Shown here piece by piece: positions 66-61,713 of a stretch of 64,000 nt of DNA; the stretch's first letter is position 1, and every line of letters begins with the position of its first letter. A model generated the notes under the pieces. That model was not told the origin of the DNA, searched no databases, and worked only from the letters and a program-made list of their open reading frames with translations. The DNA is taken from positions 248,001 to 312,000 of the forward strand of contig NZ_KB898038.1 of assembly GCF_000377345.1 (NCBI RefSeq). The letters are read 5' to 3'. The stretch is from Thioalkalivibrio sp. ALJ16 (GTDB lineage: Bacteria > Pseudomonadota > Gammaproteobacteria > Ectothiorhodospirales > Ectothiorhodospiraceae). A program made the translations under genes and the position numbers.

Positions 66-713
66 TCAGCCCGCGGTGCGGCCAATCAGGTTCAGGAATT
101 CACGGCGGGTGCGGCCGTCCTCGCGGAACGCGCCCAGCATCACCGAGGTCGCCATGGAGGAGTGCTGCTTTTCCACCCCGCGCATGGTCATGCACATGTG
201 CTTGGCATCCACCACCACACCAACCCCCTTGGCCCCCGTGACCTGCATCAGCGCCTCGGCAATCTCGCGGGTCAGGCTCTCCTGGATCTGCAGGCGGGCG
301 GCGAACATGTCCACAATGCGCGCGATCTTCGACAGGCCGATCACCTTGCCGTCGGGCAGATAGGCCACATGCACCTTGCCGATGATCGGCAGCAGGTGAT
401 GCTCGCACATGGAGTACAGCTCGATATCGCGCAGCAGCACCATCTCGTCGTTGTCGGAGGAAAACAGCGCCCCGTTGACGATGGTATCCAGGTCCTGGTG
501 GTAGCCGCGCGTCAGGTACTGCATCGCCTTGGCGGCGCGCATCGGCGTATCCAGCAGGCCCTCGCGCTGCGGATTTTCGCCCAGCCCGGCGAGGATCGCA
601 CGGTAGTGTTCGGCCAGGGCCTCGGGGGCCGCCAGCGGCTGGCCGGCGGCCACCACGGGCCCGGCGTTGATGCGGGCTTGTGCATCCATGGTCGAATCCT
701 TGTCTTCGCTCAT
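66..713 (-). CDS. folE: GTP cyclohydrolase I (type I, zinc-dependent)
   Basis: Converts GTP to 7,8-dihydroneopterin triphosphate and formate, the first step of the folate and pterin pathway, in the cytoplasm. The 215-residue length is normal for the family. The zinc and active-site signature SMCEHHLLP is at 101-109 (Cys103, His106), and the second zinc cysteine is Cys174 in [11 protein letters not shown] at 713 is used here; an ATG eight codons in (689) has a closer AAGGA motif and is an equally possible start. The gene lies 28 nt downstream of the DUF3429 gene and is probably co-transcribed with it from the divergent promoter region near 1620. Known family biology links extra folE copies with light-inducible clusters that also carry photolyase or fatty-acid genes, since pterins feed photolyase antennae; that link is inference here. 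Confidence 0.95.
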
Positions 714-741: not shown

Positions 742-1527
742 TCAGGCCACCAGCGTCACCGCAAGCCCGGAGGCCAGGGCCAGCATAGCCCCCGCCGTCA
801 GCACCAGGCGCAGGCCCAGGTAACCCGGGGGCAGGGCCCGCTGACGCAGGCTCATGCGGTCCACCCAGAGCACCCCAAGAAACAGGGCCGCCAGCGTCAT
901 CAGGGCCTCCGGCAGCGGCTGCAATACGGCCAGCCACGCCAGGATGGACGGCACGACCGCCCACACCGGGGCCTGCAGCGGCCCCACGCGGTGCTGCCGG
1001 TCCGCCAGGTAGATGCCCCAGTGGATCGCCCCCAGGAACGACAGGATCACCGCACCATAGAGCGCCAGGGCCTCCAGCGCGAAAGCCTGCCATTCCGGCT
1101 GGGCCATCCAGGCCGCCGCCCCGAAAAACACAAAGGGTATCAGGCCGCCATAGCCCAGTACCTGCAGGGCCGGCGCCGGTGCATCCGGTCGCACCGTATC
1201 CGCGGGTGCGCGGGTCGCACTCGTCCCCAGATACGCGCGCAGCTCCGGAAGGCCGCCAATCGCGCCGTCGCGGGCAACAAAGAAGGGCAGCACCGAGGCA
1301 CCCGTCGCCTGCTGCAGGGCATGGAACTGCTCGCGATTGTGCGCGGAACCCATGCCCCACTCCAGGCGCAGCCAGCGCCCCGGGCGCGTCGCCTCCAGCA
1401 GGGCCTCGGCCTCGCGCAGGTCCGACAGCCCCGAGGTGATGGCCACGATCTCGTGGGTCGCCAGCGCCTCGCCTACGGCTGCCGGCCAGGCCGCATCCGG
1501 CCGGTCGTTTCCGCTGTCCTGTGCCAC
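742..1527 (-). CDS. DUF3429 membrane protein with N-terminal cysteine-free glutaredoxin-like domain
   Basis: GTG at 1527 is chosen because a perfect AAAGGAGT lies 6 nt upstream; the longer reading from TTG at 1587 has no ribosome site. The 261-residue product has two parts. Residues about 26-101 follow the thioredoxin/glutaredoxin pattern: beta strand, helix ending AEALLE, then SVLPFFV with a proline at the cis-Pro position (81) and GAIGGLPEL, as in the glutathione-binding loop. The CPxC position is LSDL (34-37), and the whole protein contains no cysteine. Residues about 120-261 hold roughly four hydrophobic segments and the FLGAIHWG motif (164-171) typical of DUF3429. It is first in a two-gene unit with folE and divergent from the lipid cluster. 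DUF3429 has no established function. A structural or glutathione-sensing role for the front domain is speculation. Confidence 0.8.
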
Positions 1528-1609: not shown

Positions 1610-1642
1610 TATTTACAGTGATTGTACAGCTATTGTATAAGT
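1610..1642. promoter_or_regulatory. Three in-phase 11-bp direct repeats, candidate CarH/LitR-type operator
   Basis: Three consecutive 11-nt units (1610-1620, 1621-1631, 1632-1642) share T at unit position 3, TA at 5-6 and A at 8. The cores are TTTACAG, TTGTACAG and TTGTATAA, each exactly 11 nt apart. They cover both opposed promoters in the gap between the DUF3429-folE unit and the FAD oxidoreductase operon. Tandem 11-bp repeats containing TGTACA-like cores are how B12-dependent MerR-family light regulators such as CarH bind DNA (family knowledge). No regulator gene of that family is in this window, so the identity of the binding protein is inferred. Confidence 0.6.
1612..1641 (+). promoter_or_regulatory. 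Sigma-70-like promoter for the FAD oxidoreductase/lipid operon
   Basis: The -35 box is TTTACA (1612-1617), the spacer is 18 nt, and the -10 box is TATAAG (1636-1641). This places transcription start about 30 nt before the ATG at 1677. Both boxes lie inside the 11-bp repeats, so a protein bound there would block it. Confidence 0.5.
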
Positions 1643-1648
1643 TGTCCA
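1621..1648 (-). promoter_or_regulatory. Opposed sigma-70-like promoter for the DUF3429-folE unit
   Basis: On the minus strand TGGACA (1648-1643), a 16-nt spacer and TACAAT (1626-1621) form a five-of-six plus five-of-six match to consensus. It overlaps the plus-strand promoter face to face and is covered by the same repeats, so both arms could be switched together. Confidence 0.4.
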
Positions 1649-1676: not shown

Positions 1677-3059
1677 ATGAAACGCTCGCGCATCGCTGTC
1701 ATCGGCGGCGGCATCGCCGGCCTGTCGGCGGCCTGGATCCTCCAGACCCGGCATCAGGTCCGGTTGTTCGAGGCCGAACCCGCGCTCGGGGGCCATGCCC
1801 ACACCGTGGAGGTCACCGATCCGCAGGGCCCGACCGCCATCGATACCGGGTTCGTGGTGTACAACGAACGCAACTACCCGCTGCTGACGCGGCTGTTCGC
1901 GGAGCTGGACGTGGCCACCCAGGACACCGACATGTCCTTCGCCTACTCGCGCCAGCCCCATGGCGTGGAGTATGCCGGGTCGGATCTCAACACCCTGTTT
2001 GCCCAGCGCCGCAACCTGCTGCGCCCGCGCTTCCTGCGCATGGCCAGCGACATCCTGCGTTTCAACCGTCTCGGCAGGATGCTGTTCGAGCGTGGCGAGA
2101 GCGCGAACGGCACCCTGGGAGCGTTCCTCGACCGCCACCGCCTCGGCCGCGGCTTCGCCGAGGACTACCTGCTGCCCATGGCCGCGGCGATCTGGTCCTG
2201 CCCGCCCGAGGAGATCCGCGAATTCCCGGCCGCCAGTTTCCTCCAGTTCTTCTACAACCATGGCCTGCTGGATCTGCGCGACCGGCCGCAGTGGCGCACG
2301 GTGACCGGTGGCAGCCGCGAATACGTGCAGCGCCTGGCCGCAAGGCTGGAACCGGGCACCACCGTCCATCGTCCGGTGCGGGCGGTGCTGCCCGAGTCCG
2401 GCCAGTGGCAGGTCCTGACGGATGACCAGGTCTCCGGCTTCGACAGCGTCGTGTTTGCCTGCCACGCGGATACCGCCCGCTACCTGCTGAACGCCGCGGA
2501 CCCCACGCGTGACCGCCTGCTGGCGGCCTGCCGATTCCAGTCCAACCGCGCCGTGCTGCACACCGACCCGGACCTGATGCCGCGCTCGCGGCGGGTCTGG
2601 TCGTCGTGGAACTACCTCAGCGGTCACCACGGCGATTCCCGCAGCCGGGTCTCGGTCTCCTACTGGATGAACCGCCTGCATCGGCTGGAACGACGCCAGG
2701 ACTACATCATCAGCCTGAACCCGCTGCGCGAGCCCCACCCGACCACGGTACTGCGCGAACAGAGCTGGGAGCACCCGGTGATGGACACCGCCGCCGAGGC
2801 CGCACGCGCACGGCTGGCCGCGACCCAGGGCGAGGACGGCCTGTACTTCGCAGGCGCCTGGATGGGCTACGGCTTCCACGAGGACGGCCTGCGCTCGGCA
2901 GTACACGTCGGCCAGGCCATGGGCATCGAACCGCCGTGGTCACAGCCGATCGGCACACGGGGCGCACCCGCCCACAGTCCACTCGACACCCGACCGGTTG
3001 CGCACAGGGGCGGTCCCGCCCCTGCCGGCGCGCCCGCCGCACGCTCGCGGGCCGCCTGA
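1677..3059 (+). CDS. FAD-dependent NAD(P)-binding oxidoreductase (amine-oxidase fold) of the DUF1365/CFA cluster
   Basis: A 460-residue flavoprotein. The Rossmann dinucleotide motif IAVIGGGIAGLSAAW is at 6-20, followed by FEAEPALGGHAHT, the usual second FAD contact, and a C-terminal FAGAWMGYGFHEDGLRSA, which closes the FAD site in this fold. GGAG upstream of ATG 1677 supports the start. The last 40 residues are Pro/Arg-rich and look disordered. It is the first gene of a tight operon: its stop abuts the next start (TGAATG). Homologues next to CFA-type methyltransferases take part in modifying unsaturated fatty acids, and a flavoprotein of such a cluster (UfaD) acts in furan fatty acid synthesis in Rhodobacter. 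Equating this gene with UfaD is inference. Confidence 0.8.
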   Translation: MKRSRIAVIGGGIAGLSAAWILQTRHQVRLFEAEPALGGHAHTVEVTDPQGPTAIDTGFVVYNERNYPLLTRLFAELDVATQDTDMSFAYSRQPHGVEYAGSDLNTLFAQRRNLLRPRFLRMASDILRFNRLGRMLFERGESANGTLGAFLDRHRLGRGFAEDYLLPMAAAIWSCPPEEIREFPAASFLQFFYNHGLLDLRDRPQWRTVTGGSREYVQRLAARLEPGTTVHRPVRAVLPESGQWQVLTDDQVSGFDSVVFACHADTARYLLNAADPTRDRLLAACRFQSNRAVLHTDPDLMPRSRRVWSSWNYLSGHHGDSRSRVSVSYWMNRLHRLERRQDYIISLNPLREPHPTTVLREQSWEHPVMDTAAEAARARLAATQGEDGLYFAGAWMGYGFHEDGLRSAVHVGQAMGIEPPWSQPIGTRGAPAHSPLDTRPVAHRGGPAPAGAPAARSRAA

Positions 3060-3830
3060 ATGGACGCGGCCCTGGTACCCGGCTGGGTGATGCACCAGCG
3101 CTTTTTTCCGCAGCAGTACCGGTTTCGCTATCCGGTCATCAGCGCGCTGTTCGATATCGACCGGCTGGCGGAAACCACCCGGCGCTGCCGCCTGTTCTCG
3201 CTGGACCGGCGTAACCTGTTCAGCCTGCGCACGCGTGATCACGGCCCGCGCGACGGCCGCCCCTGGCGCCCCTGGATCGAGACCCGCCTGGCCGAGCACG
3301 GCATCGAACTCGCCGGCGGCCGCATCCGCCTGCTGACCATGCCGCGGGTACTCGGGCACGCCTTCAACCCGCTCAGCATCTGGTATGCCTGGCATGCCGA
3401 CGGGGGGCTGCGTGCCATCCTGCTGGAGGTGCGCAACACCTTCGGCGAGCACCACCACTATCTGCTGCACGAGAACGGCGCACCCATGGCCCTCCCGGTA
3501 CGCCAGCAGAAGGACAAGTCCTTCCACGTATCACCGTTCATCGACATGCACGCGCGCTACGCCTTCACCCTGACGCCCCCGCGCGCGGAGGCCGGTGCCT
3601 CCCTGCGCATTGCCATCAACGAATACCAGGACCAGGAACTGATGCTCACGGCCACCCAGCACGGCCGTCTGCGCCCGTTCAACGACCGTGCGTTGCTGGG
3701 CGCATTCCTGCGCAAGCCCTGGATGACCCTCAGGGTCCTGCCCCTGATTCACTGGCAGGCACTCAGGATCTGGTGGCGCGGCGGGCGCTATCACCCGCGC
3801 CCGCCGCGTCCGGCACAGGAGATCGACTAA
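3060..3830 (+). CDS. DUF1365 family protein
   Basis: 256 residues matching DUF1365: the opening VMHQRFFPQQYRFRYPV (residues 10-26), the central LGHAFNPLSIWYAW (about 98-111) and VSPFIDMHARYAF (about 157-169) are the usual conserved blocks. No signal peptide or membrane segment is evident. The family has no proven reaction but almost always accompanies an FAD oxidoreductase and a CFA-type methyltransferase, as here. It starts directly after the preceding stop codon and its own stop overlaps the next start by one base (TAATG), so translation is coupled across the trio. A role in handling the modified acyl chain is likely but inferred from context only. Confidence 0.85.
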   Translation: MDAALVPGWVMHQRFFPQQYRFRYPVISALFDIDRLAETTRRCRLFSLDRRNLFSLRTRDHGPRDGRPWRPWIETRLAEHGIELAGGRIRLLTMPRVLGHAFNPLSIWYAWHADGGLRAILLEVRNTFGEHHHYLLHENGAPMALPVRQQKDKSFHVSPFIDMHARYAFTLTPPRAEAGASLRIAINEYQDQELMLTATQHGRLRPFNDRALLGAFLRKPWMTLRVLPLIHWQALRIWWRGGRYHPRPPRPAQEID

Positions 3831-5086
3831 TGTCCCTCGACCAACTCGACACCCCCCAAGTCGCAACCGCCCGCCGTGACTGGGCCCTGCGCCTGATCGC
3901 GCGGGCGCTGAAGGACATCGACAGCGGACAGATCACCCTGATCGGCCCCGGCGGCGATCGCGTCACCGTACGCGGGCGCCGTGCCGGCGCCGAGGCGATC
4001 TGGCACTTCCGGCGCCCGTGGCGCGCGATCCTGCGCCTGCTGCGCCACGGCGACATCGGCTTTGCCGAGGGCTTCATCAGCGGGGACTGGTTCACCCCCG
4101 ACCTGCAGGCCCTGCTGCGCTTCGCCACCGACAACCAGGACGCGGTGGCGGCCCTGGCGGACCGTCCCGGCTGGCAGCGAGGCATCGACCGCCTGCGCCA
4201 CTGGATGCACCGCAACAGCCGCCGCGGCAGCCGCGCCAACATCCGCTTTCACTACGATCTCGGCAACGACTTCTACGACCTGTGGCTGGACCGCAGCATG
4301 AGCTACTCGTCGGCCCTGTTCACCCGCGGCGACGAGGCCCTGGAACAGGCCCAGTCGCAGAAATACGCACGCCTGCTGGACCAGCTCGATGCCGCCCCCG
4401 GCGCGCACATCCTCGAAATCGGCTGCGGCTGGGGCGGCTTTGCCGAGATGGCCGCGCAGCGCGGCTACCGGGTCACCGGCGTCACCCTGTCGCAGGAACA
4501 GCTGGACTACGCCCGCGCGCGCATCGAGCGCGCTGGCCTCGAGGACCGCGTGGAACTGCGCCTGCAGGACTACCGCGATCTGGAGGGCCGCTTTGATCAC
4601 GTGGTGTCCATCGAGATGTTCGAGGCGGTAGGCGAACAGTGGTGGCCGACCTTCTTTGCCAAGGTCCGCGAGTGCCTGCGCCCGGGCGGGCGCGCGGCGC
4701 TGCAGGTGATCACCATTGCCGAACAGGCCTTCGAGTACTACCGCCGCAATGCCGACTTCATCCAGCTCTACATCTTTCCCGGTGGCATGCTGCCTTCGGT
4801 CCCGCGCTTCAACGCGGAGGCCGAGCAGGCCGGCCTGACCGTCGCGGATCAGGCCTTCTTCGGGGCGGACTACGCGCGCACGCTGCGGCACTGGCACCAG
4901 GAGGTGCGTCAGGCCGAGCCGGTGATCGAGGCGCTGGGCTACTCGCCGTCCTTCCTGCGCATGTGGCGCTACTACCTGGCCTACTGCGAGGTCGGCTTCG
5001 ACACCGACCGCGTGAACCTGATGCAGGCCGTCCTGCAGAGCCCGGCCCAACCCGGGATGCAGGACGACCGCACGGCGACCCAATGA
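3830..5086 (+). CDS. Cyclopropane-fatty-acid-synthase-type methyltransferase, probably UfaM-like
   Basis: 418 residues, S-adenosylmethionine-dependent methyltransferase acting on unsaturated acyl chains of membrane phospholipids. ATG 3830 is set by AGGAGA 8 nt upstream. HYDLGNDFYDLWLD (141-154) and the SAM loop LEIGCGWGG (195-203) are typical. Relative to E. coli Cfa, the position of bicarbonate ligand His266 is Gln292 (ALQVIT) and that of Cys139 is Ser161 (YSSALF), while the glutamate of MFEAVG (Glu265) is kept. This suggests membership of the branch that methylates rather than cyclopropanates, as UfaM does for furan fatty acids; that assignment is inferred from the substitutions and the neighbours. 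Singlet oxygen or light is a known inducer of such clusters in other proteobacteria. Confidence 0.85.
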   Translation: MSLDQLDTPQVATARRDWALRLIARALKDIDSGQITLIGPGGDRVTVRGRRAGAEAIWHFRRPWRAILRLLRHGDIGFAEGFISGDWFTPDLQALLRFATDNQDAVAALADRPGWQRGIDRLRHWMHRNSRRGSRANIRFHYDLGNDFYDLWLDRSMSYSSALFTRGDEALEQAQSQKYARLLDQLDAAPGAHILEIGCGWGGFAEMAAQRGYRVTGVTLSQEQLDYARARIERAGLEDRVELRLQDYRDLEGRFDHVVSIEMFEAVGEQWWPTFFAKVRECLRPGGRAALQVITIAEQAFEYYRRNADFIQLYIFPGGMLPSVPRFNAEAEQAGLTVADQAFFGADYARTLRHWHQEVRQAEPVIEALGYSPSFLRMWRYYLAYCEVGFDTDRVNLMQAVLQSPAQPGMQDDRTATQ

Positions 5087-5087
5087 A

Positions 5088-6431
5088 GTGAACACCCTGC
5101 GCTGGCCGCGGCTGTTCGCCTACGGCGGCCTGGGCATGCCCCTGGCCGTACTCGGGCTGCCGCTGTATGTGTTCCTGCCGGCGCACTACGCCGAGCACAC
5201 CGGGCTGGGCATAACGCTTGTCGGGCTGCTGCTGCTCCTGGCGCGGCTGCTGGACGTGGTCACCGACCCCCTGATCGGCCATTTGTCCGACCGCATCCCC
5301 GGAGCCTGGCGCCGGCGCGCGGTGATGCTGGCCGGCGTGCCACTGCTGCTGGTGGCCGCCCCGTTCCTGTTCCGCCCGCCGGAAGATGCCGGGGCCGGCT
5401 ACCTGCTGTTGTTCAGTACCCTCGTCTACCTGGGCTGGACGCTGGTGGCCCTGCCCTATGCGGCCTGGGGTGCCGAGCTGTCCGGCGACTACCACGAACG
5501 CTCTCGCATCACCGCCGCGCGCGAGGGCTTCGTGGTGCTGGGCACGGTCACCGCCGCCGCACTGCCCGCGGTCCTCGGGCTGCAGGATGACGCCGGCGCT
5601 GCACTGGCCGCACTGGCCGTGCTGCTGTGGGTGCTGCTGCCGCTGGCCTTCGTGGTCCTGCTCTGGCGGGTGCCGGAGCGGCCCGGCCGCCTAAAACCCG
5701 TGCCCTGGCGCGCGGGCTGGGGCCTGCTGCTGGCCAACCGGCCGTTCCGGCGCCTGGTCCTGGCCTGGGTCCTCAACGGCACCGCCAACGCGATCCCGGC
5801 CACGCTGTTCCTGCTGTTCATCACCCATGTACTGGAGGCCCCGGAACACGCCGGGCCGCTGCTACTGGTGTACTTCGCCACCGGCATCCTCGCACTGCCC
5901 CTGTGGCTGCGCCTCGCGCGCCGCCTGCCCAAGCACCAGGTGTGGACGCTCTCGATGCTGCTGGCATCGAGCTTCTTTATCTGGGTCCCGTTCCTGGGGT
6001 CCGGCGACGTACTCGCGTTCTACGCGATCACCGTACTGACCGGACTCAGCCTCGGGGTCGATCTCGCCCTGCCGGCCGCGATGCAGGCCGACGTAATCGA
6101 CCAGGACACCGCCGATGGCGGTGGCGAACGCGCCGGGCTCTTCTTCGGCCTGTGGGGAATGGCCACCAAGCTGGCCCTGGCCCTCGCCGTCGGGCTCAGC
6201 TTTCCCCTGCTGGGCGCGGCCGGGTTCTCGGCCGCGGGCGACAACGGCCCCACCGCCCTGCTGGTACTGGCACTGGCCTATGCCGGCCTGCCGGTCCTGT
6301 TCAAGCTCGCCGCAATGGCCCTGATCTGGCGCTTCCCCATCGATGCCGACGCCCAGCACGCGCTGCGCGAACGCATCCACGCGCGCGAGCAAGCCACCAT
6401 CCCCGTCCAGCCCGGAGGCAACACCCCATGA
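5088..6431 (+). CDS. MFS transporter of the GPH (MelB-like) type
   Basis: 447 residues with about twelve hydrophobic segments. The cytoplasmic loop DPLIGHLSDRIPGAWRRR (about 60-77) is the D-x3-G-x2-S/D-R signature of glycoside-pentoside-hexuronide:cation symporters, and a second-half copy reads LALPAAMQADVIDQD (about 324-338). GTG 5088 sits one base after the methyltransferase stop with no clear ribosome site, so it relies on translational coupling. Its substrate cannot be read from sequence. Members lying in CFA/DUF1365 clusters are consistently present but uncharacterised; lipid precursor or lysolipid handling is a guess. The stop overlaps the next start (ATGA). Confidence 0.8.
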   Translation: MNTLRWPRLFAYGGLGMPLAVLGLPLYVFLPAHYAEHTGLGITLVGLLLLLARLLDVVTDPLIGHLSDRIPGAWRRRAVMLAGVPLLLVAAPFLFRPPEDAGAGYLLLFSTLVYLGWTLVALPYAAWGAELSGDYHERSRITAAREGFVVLGTVTAAALPAVLGLQDDAGAALAALAVLLWVLLPLAFVVLLWRVPERPGRLKPVPWRAGWGLLLANRPFRRLVLAWVLNGTANAIPATLFLLFITHVLEAPEHAGPLLLVYFATGILALPLWLRLARRLPKHQVWTLSMLLASSFFIWVPFLGSGDVLAFYAITVLTGLSLGVDLALPAAMQADVIDQDTADGGGERAGLFFGLWGMATKLALALAVGLSFPLLGAAGFSAAGDNGPTALLVLALAYAGLPVLFKLAAMALIWRFPIDADAQHALRERIHAREQATIPVQPGGNTP

Positions 6432-7009
6432 AACCTGGCCATCGCTTCATCCCTGCCACCCTGGCGCTTGTGCTGACGCTGTTCCTCGCCGCACCCGCCA
6501 CGGCGGAAACCGAGATCGACGGCGTCACCTTTGCCGACGCCATCACCATCGACGACACCCAGGTGCCACTGCGCGCCGGACGCCTGTACCGCTACACCGT
6601 CTTTCGCGTCTATGTCGGGGCGCTGTACATCCCCGAAGACGTCACCCCGGACGCCGTGCTGACCGCGGATGTCCCCAAGCGCCTGGAACTGGAATACCTG
6701 CGCGCGATCAGTGCCGACGACTTCCGCCGCAGCGGCAATCGCCTGCTTGAGGACCAGCAGGACGCGGAGACGCTGGAGGCCCTGGCCGAGCGCCTGGAGA
6801 CCTTCAACGCCGCCTACCGCGACATGGAGGCCGGCGACCGCTACGCGCTGGAATACCGCCCGGGGCATGGCACGCGCCTGCTACAGAACGGCACGCCGCT
6901 GGTCGAAGTCCCCGGCGCCGACTTTGCCGAGGCCTACTTCGGCATCTGGCTGCATCCGGAGAACCCCCTGTCACGCCGCTTCCGCGACACCCTGATCGGC
7001 CAGAGCTAG
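6428..7009 (+). CDS. Exported chalcone-isomerase-like protein
   Basis: 193 residues with a signal peptide (basic start, hydrophobic 8-22, likely cut after ATA at about 25). The mature part matches the bacterial chalcone isomerase-like family: YRYTVFRVYVGALYIPE (about 54-70) and the C-terminal AEAYFGIWLHPENPLS. Plant relatives of this fold bind fatty acids rather than catalyse isomerisation (family knowledge), which suits a periplasmic lipid-binding partner for the upstream enzymes; that role is inference. It overlaps the MFS gene by 4 nt and is the last gene of the operon. No clear terminator follows. Confidence 0.8.
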   Translation: MKPGHRFIPATLALVLTLFLAAPATAETEIDGVTFADAITIDDTQVPLRAGRLYRYTVFRVYVGALYIPEDVTPDAVLTADVPKRLELEYLRAISADDFRRSGNRLLEDQQDAETLEALAERLETFNAAYRDMEAGDRYALEYRPGHGTRLLQNGTPLVEVPGADFAEAYFGIWLHPENPLSRRFRDTLIGQS

Positions 7010-54808: not shown

Positions 54809-57800
54809 TCAATCGGCCTCTCCCAGGGCGGCACCGGCCAGGCGCAGGGCCCGCGAGAGATCGGCCAGCAGGCGATCACGCCGCGCATACAGCTCCTGCA
54901 GCCGAGCCAGCGCCTGGTCGTGCTGACCGCGTGCGTGCAGGGCCAGCAATTCCTCGGCCAGCTGATGCACCTCCTGCTGCCGACGCCGCAGCCCGGCCCC
55001 GGCATCCTGAAATGCCACGCCGGCGCGTTCCAGCCCGCGCTCGAAGACGTCGCAGTCCGCGGCGATGGAGGGCGGCAGCAGGCCCTGCCCGCGCAGATAG
55101 GCCTCCAGCTGCCCGACCCAGGCCCGGTGCGCCACCCCGGCGTGCATCAGCGGCATCGCCTCGCGCCCGATGCGCGACAGCGTCGCCCAGTGCCGGGCCG
55201 GGCGCCAGGTGGCCACCCAGTCGGGCACATGCGGCGCCGGCATCGGCCGCGCAATCCCGTAGCCCTGGGCCAGCTCGCAGCCAATCAGCAGCAGCATGTC
55301 GCCGAGTTCGACGGTCTCCACGCCCTCGGCGATCAGACGGCGCCCGAACGCCTCGGCCAGGCTCAGGATGCCGTCCAGGATCGCCAGGTCCTCGGGATCC
55401 TCCAGGATATCGCGCACAAAGCTCTGGTCGACCTTCACCGTGTCCGCCGGCAGCCGCTTGAGGTAGGTCAGCGAGGCATAACCGGTCCCGAAATCGTCCA
55501 GCGAGATCTCCACGCCCAGCGCCCGGCATCCCTGGAGACGCCGCGTCACCTCGATCATGTCACCCAGCGCGCTGGTCTCCAGCACCTCCAGCTCCAGGGA
55601 GCCGCGGGCGATGTCCGGGTAGGCGTCCAGCAGCTGCTCCAGGCGATCGACGAAATCCGGCTGCCGCAACTGATACGCCGCGACATTGACGCTGACGGGC
55701 AGATCCAGGCCCACAGCTGCCCAGGCGCGCAGCTGCCGCAGGGCGCGATCGATCACCCATTCGCCCAGTTCGACCGCCAGCGGGTGGTCCTCGATCTCGG
55801 GCAGAAAACGACCCGGCGGCAGCAGCCCCTGCTCCGGGTGCTGCCAGCGGATCAAGGCCTCGACCCCGATCACGTCGCCGGTGCGCATGTTCACCTTGGG
55901 CTGGTAGAACAGTACGAATTCCTCTTCCGCCAGCGCGCGCCGGATATCCGCCAGGGTCTCGTGATGGCTGCGGGCGGAGCGGTCGCGCTCGGCATCGAAC
56001 ACGTGGAACCGCCCCTTGCCCGCCAGCTTGGCCTGGTACATCGCCTGGTCGGCCTGGCGCAGCAGCTGGTCCGCCTCCATTTCGACATCGCCGTCCGGAT
56101 AGAAAGTCACCCCCAGGCTGGCCGACACCTGGAGCCGTTCATCCTCCTCGAACACGGGCTCGGCCGCCGCCTCGAGCATCCGCTTCAGCAGGGTCTCGCA
56201 GCCGTAGAGATTGTCGATATCGACCAGCACGGCCACGAACTCGTCCCCGCCCAGGCGCGAGAGGGTGTCCTCCGAACGCATGACGGCCTTCATGCGCGCG
56301 GCGACCTCCACCAGCATCCGATCCCCCGCCGCATGGCCGAAGCGGTCGTTGATCTGCTTGAAGCCGTCCAGATCCAGATAGACCACCGCCAGGCGTTCAT
56401 CGTGACGCCGCGCACGGGCCATGGCCTGCTGCAGGCGGTCCGCGAGCAGGGAGCGGTTGGGGAGACCGGTCAGCGCGTCGTAGTGCGCAATCCGTTCCAG
56501 CTGGCGTTCGTGCTCCTTCAGCGTGGTGATGTCCGTCGAGATGCCCAGCAGGCCGGTGATGCGCTCGCGATCGCGGTCGTCCCGGATCGGGGTCTTGATC
56601 TCCAGATAGACCCGGCGGGTGCCATCCGGCGCGACCACCTCGATCTCCTCGGTGGTCTGCTCGCCGGCCAGCACGCGGCGATCGATCTTGCGCAGTTGCC
56701 GTACCGTCTCGGCCGGGAAAAAGCGGCTGTCGCTGCTGCCGGGCAGGTCCTCGGCGGTCGCGCCAAACAGCTTCAGGCAGGCGCTGTTGGCAAAGGTGTA
56801 GAGCCCTTCCCGGTCCTTCATGTAGATATAGGACGAGACGTAATCCAGCGCATCCCGGAAGCGCTGCGACTCGGCATGGGCCGCGCGCAGCGCCAGTTCG
56901 TCCTGCTTGCGGTCGGTGATGTCGGTGGCCGTGCCGATCATGCGCAACGGACGCCCGTCCGCATCGCGGCTGACGATCAGGCCGCGGTCCTCGATCCAGA
57001 TCCAGTGGCCATCCGCGTGCCGCACCCGGTACTCCCGGGCGTAGAAGCCCCGCTGACCGTCGAGATAGGCACGCAAGGCCGCCTGCACCGCGGCGCGCTC
57101 ATCCGGATGGATGCACTGTTCCCATGTCTCCAGGGAGCTCCCGATCTGGGCCTCGTGCACCCCCATGATCTCCCGCCAGCGCGGGGAAAAGTACAGCTCG
57201 TCGCGCGCGATATCCCAGTCATACAGACCGCTGCGCGAGCCCTCCAGAGCGAAGCGCCAGCGGAACTCGCTCTCGCGCAGCTGCTCTTCCCGCCCCCGGA
57301 GCTCCTCGGTCAGACGCTCGGCGATCGCCTCGGCGCGCACCCGCGTGCCCGAGATGGACAGAATCAGCCCGAACAGCAGGGCGCTCAGCGCCACCCCCGC
57401 GCCCAGCGTGCCCCAGGCACTGGTGTAGGCCACTGCCGCCTGCGGATCGCGATGGTCGAACCGTAGCGACCAGACCCGACCGTTGAAGTCGATCTCGCGT
57501 ACCTGCGCAAAGCGGCTGGGGGCCTCCGGATCGATCTCGCAGTTGCGGTACAGCAACCGATCCGCATCCATTTCGGGGCCGTCATAGATATGCAGCCCGA
57601 CGGCCTCGCCCTCCATCAGTTCCCAGTCGCCGAGGATGCCGGTCATCAGGTCGGTCATGCGGTAGGGCGAGTAGGCCCAGCCCTTGAGCGCCCGTGCCCG
57701 CTGATCCGGCGTGTCGATCGGCAGGTCCATCCGGTACACGGGGACGTACATCAGCGTGCCGGCCTGCACATCGTGCTCGGTCTCCTGCACCAGCTGCACA

Positions 57801-60270: not shown

Positions 60271-61713
60271 TCACGCCGCCTGGGTACCGCCCACGGTCAT
60301 GCCATCGATACGCAGCGTGGGCTGGCCCACGCCAACCGGCACGCCCTGGCCCTCCTTGCCACAGGTACCGATGCCGGAATCGAGCCTCATGTCATTGCCG
60401 ATCATCGATACCCGGGTCAGCACATCCGGGCCATTCCCGATCAGAGTCGCACCCTTGACCGGGTACGTCACCTTGCCCTTCTCCACCCGATAGGCCTCGG
60501 AGGCGGAGAACACGAATTTGCCGGAGGTGATGTCCACCTGGCCACCGCCGAAATTGACCGCGTACAGGCCGTCGTCCACCGAGGCCAGGATCTCCTCCGG
60601 ATCGGCGTCGCCACCGAGCATGTAGGTATTGGTCATGCGCGGCATGGGCAGCCGGGCATAGGACTCGCGGCGGCCGTTGCCGGTGGAGCGCGTGCCCATC
60701 AGCCGGGCATTCATCTCGTCCTGCATGTAGCCCCGCAGCACGCCATCCTCGATCAGCACGGTCTGCTGGGTCGGGTTGCCCTCGTCGTCGACGTTCAGCG
60801 AGCCGCGTCGCCCCTCCAGCGTGCCGTCGTCGACGATGGTGATGCCCTTCGCCGCGACCTGCTCGCCGACGCGCCCGGAAAACGCCGAGGTGCCCTTGCG
60901 GTTGAAGTCGCCCTCCAGCCCGTGGCCGATCGCCTCGTGCAGTAGCACGCCCGGCCAGCCGGGGCCGAGCACCACCTTCATGGTCCCTGCCGGGGCCTCG
61001 CGCGCCTCCAGGTTGACCAGCGCCTGACGCACAGCCTCGCGGGCATAGCCGGCGGCCCGGTCGGCCTCGCGGAAGTACTGGTAACCGAATCGTCCACCGC
61101 CGCCCGAGGTCCCGGATTCGCGACGGCCACCCTGTTCAACGATGACCTGCACGTTCAGCCGGACCAGCGGGCGCACGTCGGTGGTCAGCTCGCCGCGGGC
61201 GTTGAGCACCAGCACCACCTCGTGCACCCCGGCCAGCGAACACATCACCTGGGTCACGCGCGGGTCCGCCGCGCGGGCCGCGGCATCCACCTCTTTCAGG
61301 AGATCGATCTTGGCCTGCTCGCCCAGTGAATCCAGGGGATTGTCCGGGGCGTACAGCGCCGGGCGCGAGGGGGCTCGTGAGGCGACTGCAATGCGGCCAC
61401 TCTGACCTGCAGCGGCAATGCTGCGCGCGGTGCGGGCCGCCTCGAGCATGGCCGGCATCGCGATGTCATCGGAATAGGCAAAACCGGTCTGCTCGCCGCG
61501 GACCACCCGGATGCCGACTCCGCGTTCGATGTTGAAGCTGGCGGACTTCACGATGCCGTCCTCCAGCGACCAGCCCTCCTGACTGGCGAACTGGAAATAG
61601 CAGTCGCCTCCGTCGATCCCGTGCCCGAAGGTGGTACCCAGCAGCGTGCTGAGCTCGCTGTCACCAAGGCCGGCGGGATCCAGCAGGGTCTGTTGTGCAA
61701 GGCTGTCGATCAT
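60271..61713 (-). CDS. tldD: TldD catalytic metallopeptidase subunit
   Basis: 480 residues. The zinc motif HExxxH is HEAIGH in LLHEAIGHGLEGDFNRKG (about 256-273), and TNTYMLGGDADPEEIL (about 360-375) and MTVGGTQAA at the end are usual. It is the catalytic half of TldD/E. Normally its partner gene pmbA is distant in E. coli; here both are in one run. Confidence 0.95.
   Translation of the reverse strand: MIDSLAQQTLLDPAGLGDSELSTLLGTTFGHGIDGGDCYFQFASQEGWSLEDGIVKSASFNIERGVGIRVVRGEQTGFAYSDDIAMPAMLEAARTARSIAAAGQSGRIAVASRAPSRPALYAPDNPLDSLGEQAKIDLLKEVDAAARAADPRVTQVMCSLAGVHEVVLVLNARGELTTDVRPLVRLNVQVIVEQGGRRESGTSGGGGRFGYQYFREADRAAGYAREAVRQALVNLEAREAPAGTMKVVLGPGWPGVLLHEAIGHGLEGDFNRKGTSAFSGRVGEQVAAKGITIVDDGTLEGRRGSLNVDDEGNPTQQTVLIEDGVLRGYMQDEMNARLMGTRSTGNGRRESYARLPMPRMTNTYMLGGDADPEEILASVDDGLYAVNFGGGQVDITSGKFVFSASEAYRVEKGKVTYPVKGATLIGNGPDVLTRVSMIGNDMRLDSGIGTCGKEGQGVPVGVGQPTLRIDGMTVGGTQAA

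Follow-up and report, generated by a model that had tools for sequence, protein, structure and literature searches.

A 64,000-nucleotide stretch of the Thioalkalivibrio sp. ALJ16 genome (the window) carries, between two opposed sets of genes, three short sequence units spaced 11 bp apart. This arrangement raises the question of which regulator recognises the units and which signal it passes to the genes on either side.

The repeat and its two gene arms

The Pfam assignments agree with the gene neighbourhood as first described from sequence only, with FAD oxidoreductase, DUF1365, CFA, MFS and Chalcone_3 proteins encoded on the plus strand, and DUF3429 and FolE proteins on the minus strand. The features of the locus are as follows (window coordinates).

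66..713, minus strand: folE, GTP cyclohydrolase I (PF01227, E 8e-75; above the NCBIfam folE cutoff)
742..1527, minus strand: DUF3429 gene (PF11911, E 6e-31; GTG start codon at 1527 preceded by an AAGGAG ribosome site, both read from the sequence)
1612..1639, no strand: candidate three-unit 11-bp operator (TTTACA, TGTACA, TGTATA), from register, shuffles and relatives
1612..1641, plus strand: putative sigma-70 promoter of the ufaDOM arm, TTTACA-N18-TATAAG, from sequence
1621..1648, minus strand: putative sigma-70 promoter of the DUF3429-folE arm, TGGACA-N16-TACAAT (10/12 to consensus)
1677..3059, plus strand: FAD-dependent oxidoreductase, likely UfaD (PF01593; gene order as in PMC7380195)
3060..3830, plus strand: DUF1365 protein, likely UfaO (PF07103, E 3e-80)
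3830..5086 (start inferred), plus strand: CFA-type methyltransferase, likely UfaM (PF02353, E 5e-86)
5088..6431, plus strand: MFS transporter, MFS_2 (PF13347, E 6e-78)
6428..7009 (start inferred), plus strand: chalcone-isomerase-like protein, Chalcone_3 (PF16036, E 5e-29)

Furan fatty acids are made in Rhodobacter by UfaM, UfaO (a DUF1365 protein) and UfaD, a phytoene-desaturase-like protein that acts as the desaturase of this synthesis (PMC7380195). The FAD oxidoreductase, DUF1365 and CFA proteins of the plus-strand arm are likely to be UfaD, UfaO and UfaM, respectively, as the three enzyme families are common to this arm and the R. sphaeroides UfaM-UfaD-UfaO pathway (PMC7380195), and here they are encoded in one operon.

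The three cores, TTTACA (1612-1617), TGTACA (1623-1628) and TGTATA (1634-1639), stand in exact 11-bp register, and among the spacings of 7-19 tested only 11 scored highly (16/18 versus at most 12/18 at the others). Searching the window for TGTACAN5TGTACAN5TGTACA with up to two mismatches returned this single match and none in 100 dinucleotide shuffles used as background, so the triple 11-bp repeat claimed between the opposed gene sets is real; a chance origin is ruled out by these shuffles together with a genome-wide scan described below. The operator is also kept in 22 aligned relatives. The search pattern itself accounts in part for the core columns of this alignment, but not for two invariant T residues, one preceding core 2 and one at alignment position 19, nor for a conserved A following core 3. 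CarH operators consist of three tandem 11-bp repeats of the form nnnnTnnACAn, one of which contains the -35 element (PMC9304148), and by this test each strand of the ALJ16 repeat reads as two full repeats plus one pseudo-repeat.

Two opposed promoters plausibly overlap across the repeat. On the plus strand the -35 element coincides with repeat 1 and the -10 element overlaps repeat 3, a geometry that, read by eye, is similar at the promoters of litR (TGTACA-N18-TACAAT) and an MCP gene (TGTACT-N18-TACAGT) elsewhere in the genome. The minus-strand candidate, running from 1648 to 1621, has 0.0 matches expected in shuffles; an alternative on this strand would be the mirrored TATACA-N16-TGTAAA. A single CarH site can face divergent promoters (PMC9304148), as we propose here.

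The regulator gene and related sites in the genome and family

A strict scan of the 2.76-Mb genome (TGTACAN5TGTACAN5TGTACA, up to three mismatches) identified three sites, compared with none for the reversed-pattern control. Of the two besides the window's own repeat, one lies directly upstream of the only CarH/LitR-type MerR gene of the genome, which is followed in its operon by genes for a DPRP-type photolyase-related protein and an FAD-binding DNA photolyase. The sequence-only reading had anticipated both a CarH/LitR homologue and a recurrence of the repeat near photolyase genes, and both were found. The homologue, LitR, has 319 aa (G000:C6:59480-60436, minus strand) and is encoded by the only long MerR gene of the genome; the other MerR gene (C10, a 132-aa frame) was rejected as a LitR candidate for being too short. 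In nearly all litR homologues the start codon falls 8-9 bp past the last core, right behind a TACAAT box within the operator, which suggests that the litR mRNA may be leaderless. In ALJ16 this start and TACAAT box are found at L003 1752-1790 (G000:C6 about 60436-60472).

The third strict site precedes a gene for a PAS-PAS-MCP receptor (L026 5614-5641; G000:C2:49613-49640) and is also found before its homologues in several members of the genus (L080, L087, L088). A weaker, two-unit 11-bp site is located upstream of a Tll0287-like gene and the short LOV gene that follows it (L027 about 6025-6063; G000:C4:28024-28062), and recurs before the same gene pair in most genus members. In addition, a STAS-CheY chemotaxis operon is preceded by two mismatch-free TGTACA cores at the 11-bp spacing (L213 about 1434-1461; G000:C13:68433-68460); its genes were named by eye from their translations, and the site is known from ALJ16 alone. 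A loose scan (three TDTAYA units, up to three mismatches) was noisy, with 17/15 matches versus 5/5 in the control; sites besides the strict three lie at C5:149834, C9:90455 and C2:77743.

Of the 47 family genomes compared, 38 have LitR, 41 match the site pattern and none matches the reversed control; every one of the 38 LitR-encoding genomes carries the site. Among the genomes that are at least 90% complete (n=38), 34 have both LitR and the site, four have neither and none has just one, and the co-occurrence has a Fisher p of 1.4e-5, uncorrected for kinship. Three genomes without LitR also match the pattern, and all three are incomplete. In G027 (77% complete) the site before ufaD is perfect; every match in G011 and G042 carries one mismatch.

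For the upstream comparison, ufaD loci were collected whether or not they had a site. All 26 such loci of the genus carry the triple, 35-40 bp before the start. Relatives that share the divergent layout keep the repeat, a test that the sequence-only reading had proposed. In two other genera the full triple precedes ufaD in G002, G008, G009, G041 and G044, all with LitR, and is kept in G043 as judged by pattern position; G001, G004, G010, G005 and G006, also with LitR, have two cores and one upstream core. Of the genomes without LitR, G007 has none of the repeat before ufaD, and G003, which retains ufaD and folE (L247, G003:C17), has cores decayed to TTTGCA, TGCATA and GGTATA, with substitutions in all three, while TATAAG and the flanks are retained. 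G003, a sister genome, represents a natural loss experiment for the operator. The contrast rests on the identity of the changed bases, since by a simple score G003 (12.25) is close to G001, G004 and G010 (12.75), in which the two central cores are intact. In Thioalkalivibrio sulfidiphilus and Ectothiorhodospira, litR, the photolyase gene, folE, the site and ufaDOM form a single cluster.

Candidate signals for the repressor

The sequence-only reading had proposed that light is sensed by a B12-binding MerR protein, as in class I CarH/LitR regulators in which the repressor itself perceives light via adenosylcobalamin. The operator, with its three 11-bp repeats of which one includes the -35 element, is CarH-like (PMC9304148), and so is the protein: the N-terminal MerR DNA-binding domain of LitR matches Thermus CarH over residues 12-88, and for the fold of the C-terminal half an AF2 model of the LitR of Thioalkalivibrio sp. 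ALE31 (81% identical to that of ALJ16; mean pLDDT 86.9) has the Thermus CarH structures 5c8d/5c8e as its top matches, with a TM(target) of up to 0.79 against cobalamin-domain structures. Since Thermus CarH matches first, the cobalamin-binding fold persists in LitR. However, the Trp, Glu-His and lower-ligand His residues of CarH are absent from all 20 aligned family LitRs, whereas the same alignment shows them intact in class I loci such as L105-L108. Pfam detects a MerR domain only, both in the ALJ16 protein (PF13411, E 1e-15) and in all 20 family LitRs, with no hit to the B12-binding domain PF02310 in 20/20; PF02607 (B12-binding_2) likewise has no hit in LitR, whose predicted fold contains a helical bundle. 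The protein scores 83 bits against the NCBIfam CarH cutoff of 400, and the only PF02310 protein of the genome is a MetH-sized, 1309-aa frame that is not a MerR protein. Given the missing ligands and the low CarH score, B12 is unlikely to be the light sensor, and the ligand residues together with the absence of a B12-MerR gene rule out a B12 photoreceptor to the extent that we regard direct cobalamin sensing as very improbable. The earlier proposal thus stands in so far as a LitR-type operator and a LitR homologue are concerned, but not with regard to B12 sensing. The repeat is almost certainly the operator of a CarH-shaped, B12-blind LitR-type MerR repressor.

The photosensor acting with such a repressor is probably a short LOV protein of about 143 aa (G000:C4:26754-27182, minus strand), which has its adduct Cys in DCRFLQ, lacks an effector domain, and among proteins of solved structure most resembles the short LOVs of the Pseudomonas type (E 9e-56). 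Alternatively, a B12-independent LitR could be relieved by another factor, such as a different PAS or LOV protein, the redox state or a CarS-like antirepressor, in which case the signal might be something other than blue light itself. The LOV gene is unlinked to litR in this genome, which also encodes many other PAS proteins, and the myxobacterial CarA is a B12-independent CarH paralogue that is relieved by CarS (PMC9304148). Moreover, the LOV proteins of five LitR-encoding relatives (G001, G004, G005, G006 and G010) are all more distant (46-51% identity), so the partner of the repressor may differ there. Against this, a close short LOV (at least 70% identity) occurs in 33/38 genomes with LitR and in none of the six from other genera that lack LitR. 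In most members of the genus a two-unit 11-bp site also precedes the LOV operon, and in G041 the LOV gene clusters with the site and folE. We give relief by a factor other than the short LOV a small chance. Least probable, in our view, is a singlet-oxygen promoter of the ECF11 sigma/ChrR type, the kind of control that these genes have in Rhodobacter, where ufa products accumulate in R. sphaeroides chrR mutants (PMC7380195). A ChrR-related cupin protein is encoded in ALJ16, but this sole candidate reaches 60.8 bits, about half the ChrR cutoff of 124.5, matches the cupin half only, and is encoded beside putA with no ECF sigma gene seen there, while the conserved block at the locus is the repeat with a sigma-70-like -10 element. 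The singlet-oxygen regulon suggested earlier for both arms is accordingly not upheld. The cupin protein is a double-cupin, ChrR-like protein without an anti-sigma domain, and its gene adjoins the putA-type gene at L210 6695-7345 (G000:C3 about 56694-57344).

A proposed LitR/LOV switch and its relation to known systems

Class II LitR proteins operate with short LOV proteins in P. mendocina (PmlR2/PmSB-LOV) and P. putida (PplR1-3/PpSB-LOV). DNA binding by PmlR2, which recognises TGTACA-type sites, is abolished by illuminated PmSB-LOV in P. mendocina; phrB, ufaM and folE are light-induced there, and PmlR2 binds the promoters of such targets (PMC9758184). The system described here shares with those of Pseudomonas a LitR-type MerR protein without a functional cobalamin site, a closely related short LOV encoded in the genome, promoters overlaid by TGTACA-type cores, and apparent targets, namely phr, the FAD oxidoreductase gene, ufaM and folE (PMC9758184). 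With an estimated probability of about 0.8, we propose that a B12-independent, class-II-LitR-like repressor and a short LOV protein form a blue-light switch on ufaDOM and DUF3429-folE; the idea of a light switch in general is well supported, while binding, repression, LOV antagonism and light induction are what we infer by analogy with Pseudomonas.

In the dark, LitR would occupy the three units of the repeat. As these span the ufaDOM promoter from -35 to -10 as well as the opposed DUF3429-folE promoter, both arms would be blocked. Under blue light the short LOV protein would bind the repressor and lift it off, as PmSB-LOV does with PmlR2. Its own operon, with the DPRP and photolyase genes, would also be under LitR control, as probably would the operon of the Tll0287-like and LOV genes. 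The outcome would be light-induced furan fatty acids that give the membrane singlet-oxygen protection, DNA photorepair, and light-induced folate, which could serve as photolyase antenna or be used elsewhere. The folate antenna of a light-induced photolyase may come via FolE. A wider version of this B12-free switch, in which the 11-bp triple operator and feedback on the LOV operon are joined by control of the chemotaxis genes (PAS-PAS-MCP and STAS-CheY), is a tentative extension that we consider possible but doubtful; if true, light would set photoprotection and swimming together in soda-lake sulfur oxidisers.

Several features set this system apart from its relatives. The Pseudomonas operator is T(G/A)TACA-N12-TGTA(C/T)A with an 18-bp spacing (PMC9758184), whereas here the cores match but the spacing is N5, or 11 bp. 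In a count of spacings, 18 bp predominated at Pseudomonas and Halomonadaceae loci, the latter with some at 11 bp, and 11 bp was the spacing at Thioalkalivibrio/Ectothiorhodospira loci; the reversed control was empty. The P. mendocina class II LitRs show PF02607 (PMC9758184) and the LitR found here has no detectable B12-binding_2 domain, and its assignment to class II is therefore by resemblance. Also unlike in Pseudomonas, litR heads the photolyase operon, the LOV gene sits with the Tll0287-like gene, and a single operator would serve both the ufaDOM and folE arms. The CarH systems of Thermus thermophilus and myxobacteria share the fold and the 11-bp triple-repeat layout (PMC9304148), but LitR here lacks the cobalamin ligands and its apparent targets are not carotenoid genes. 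The ufa genes, which in Rhodobacter are tied to the ChrR pathway (PMC7380195), are in Thioalkalivibrio apparently under LitR.

A search of the open-access literature found no study of LitR in Thioalkalivibrio or Ectothiorhodospira. The proposed switch would bring to haloalkaliphilic sulfur bacteria the LitR/short-LOV blue-light control demonstrated by biochemistry in Pseudomonas mendocina, and would place the DUF3429 gene and folE under a signal shared with furan fatty acid synthesis. From class I proteins with B12 through Halomonas and Pseudomonas to Thioalkalivibrio, a natural series emerges in which the chromophore ligands of CarH are lost and the operator spacing is 11 or 18 bp, making it testable how a photoreceptor turns into a plain repressor driven by a partner.
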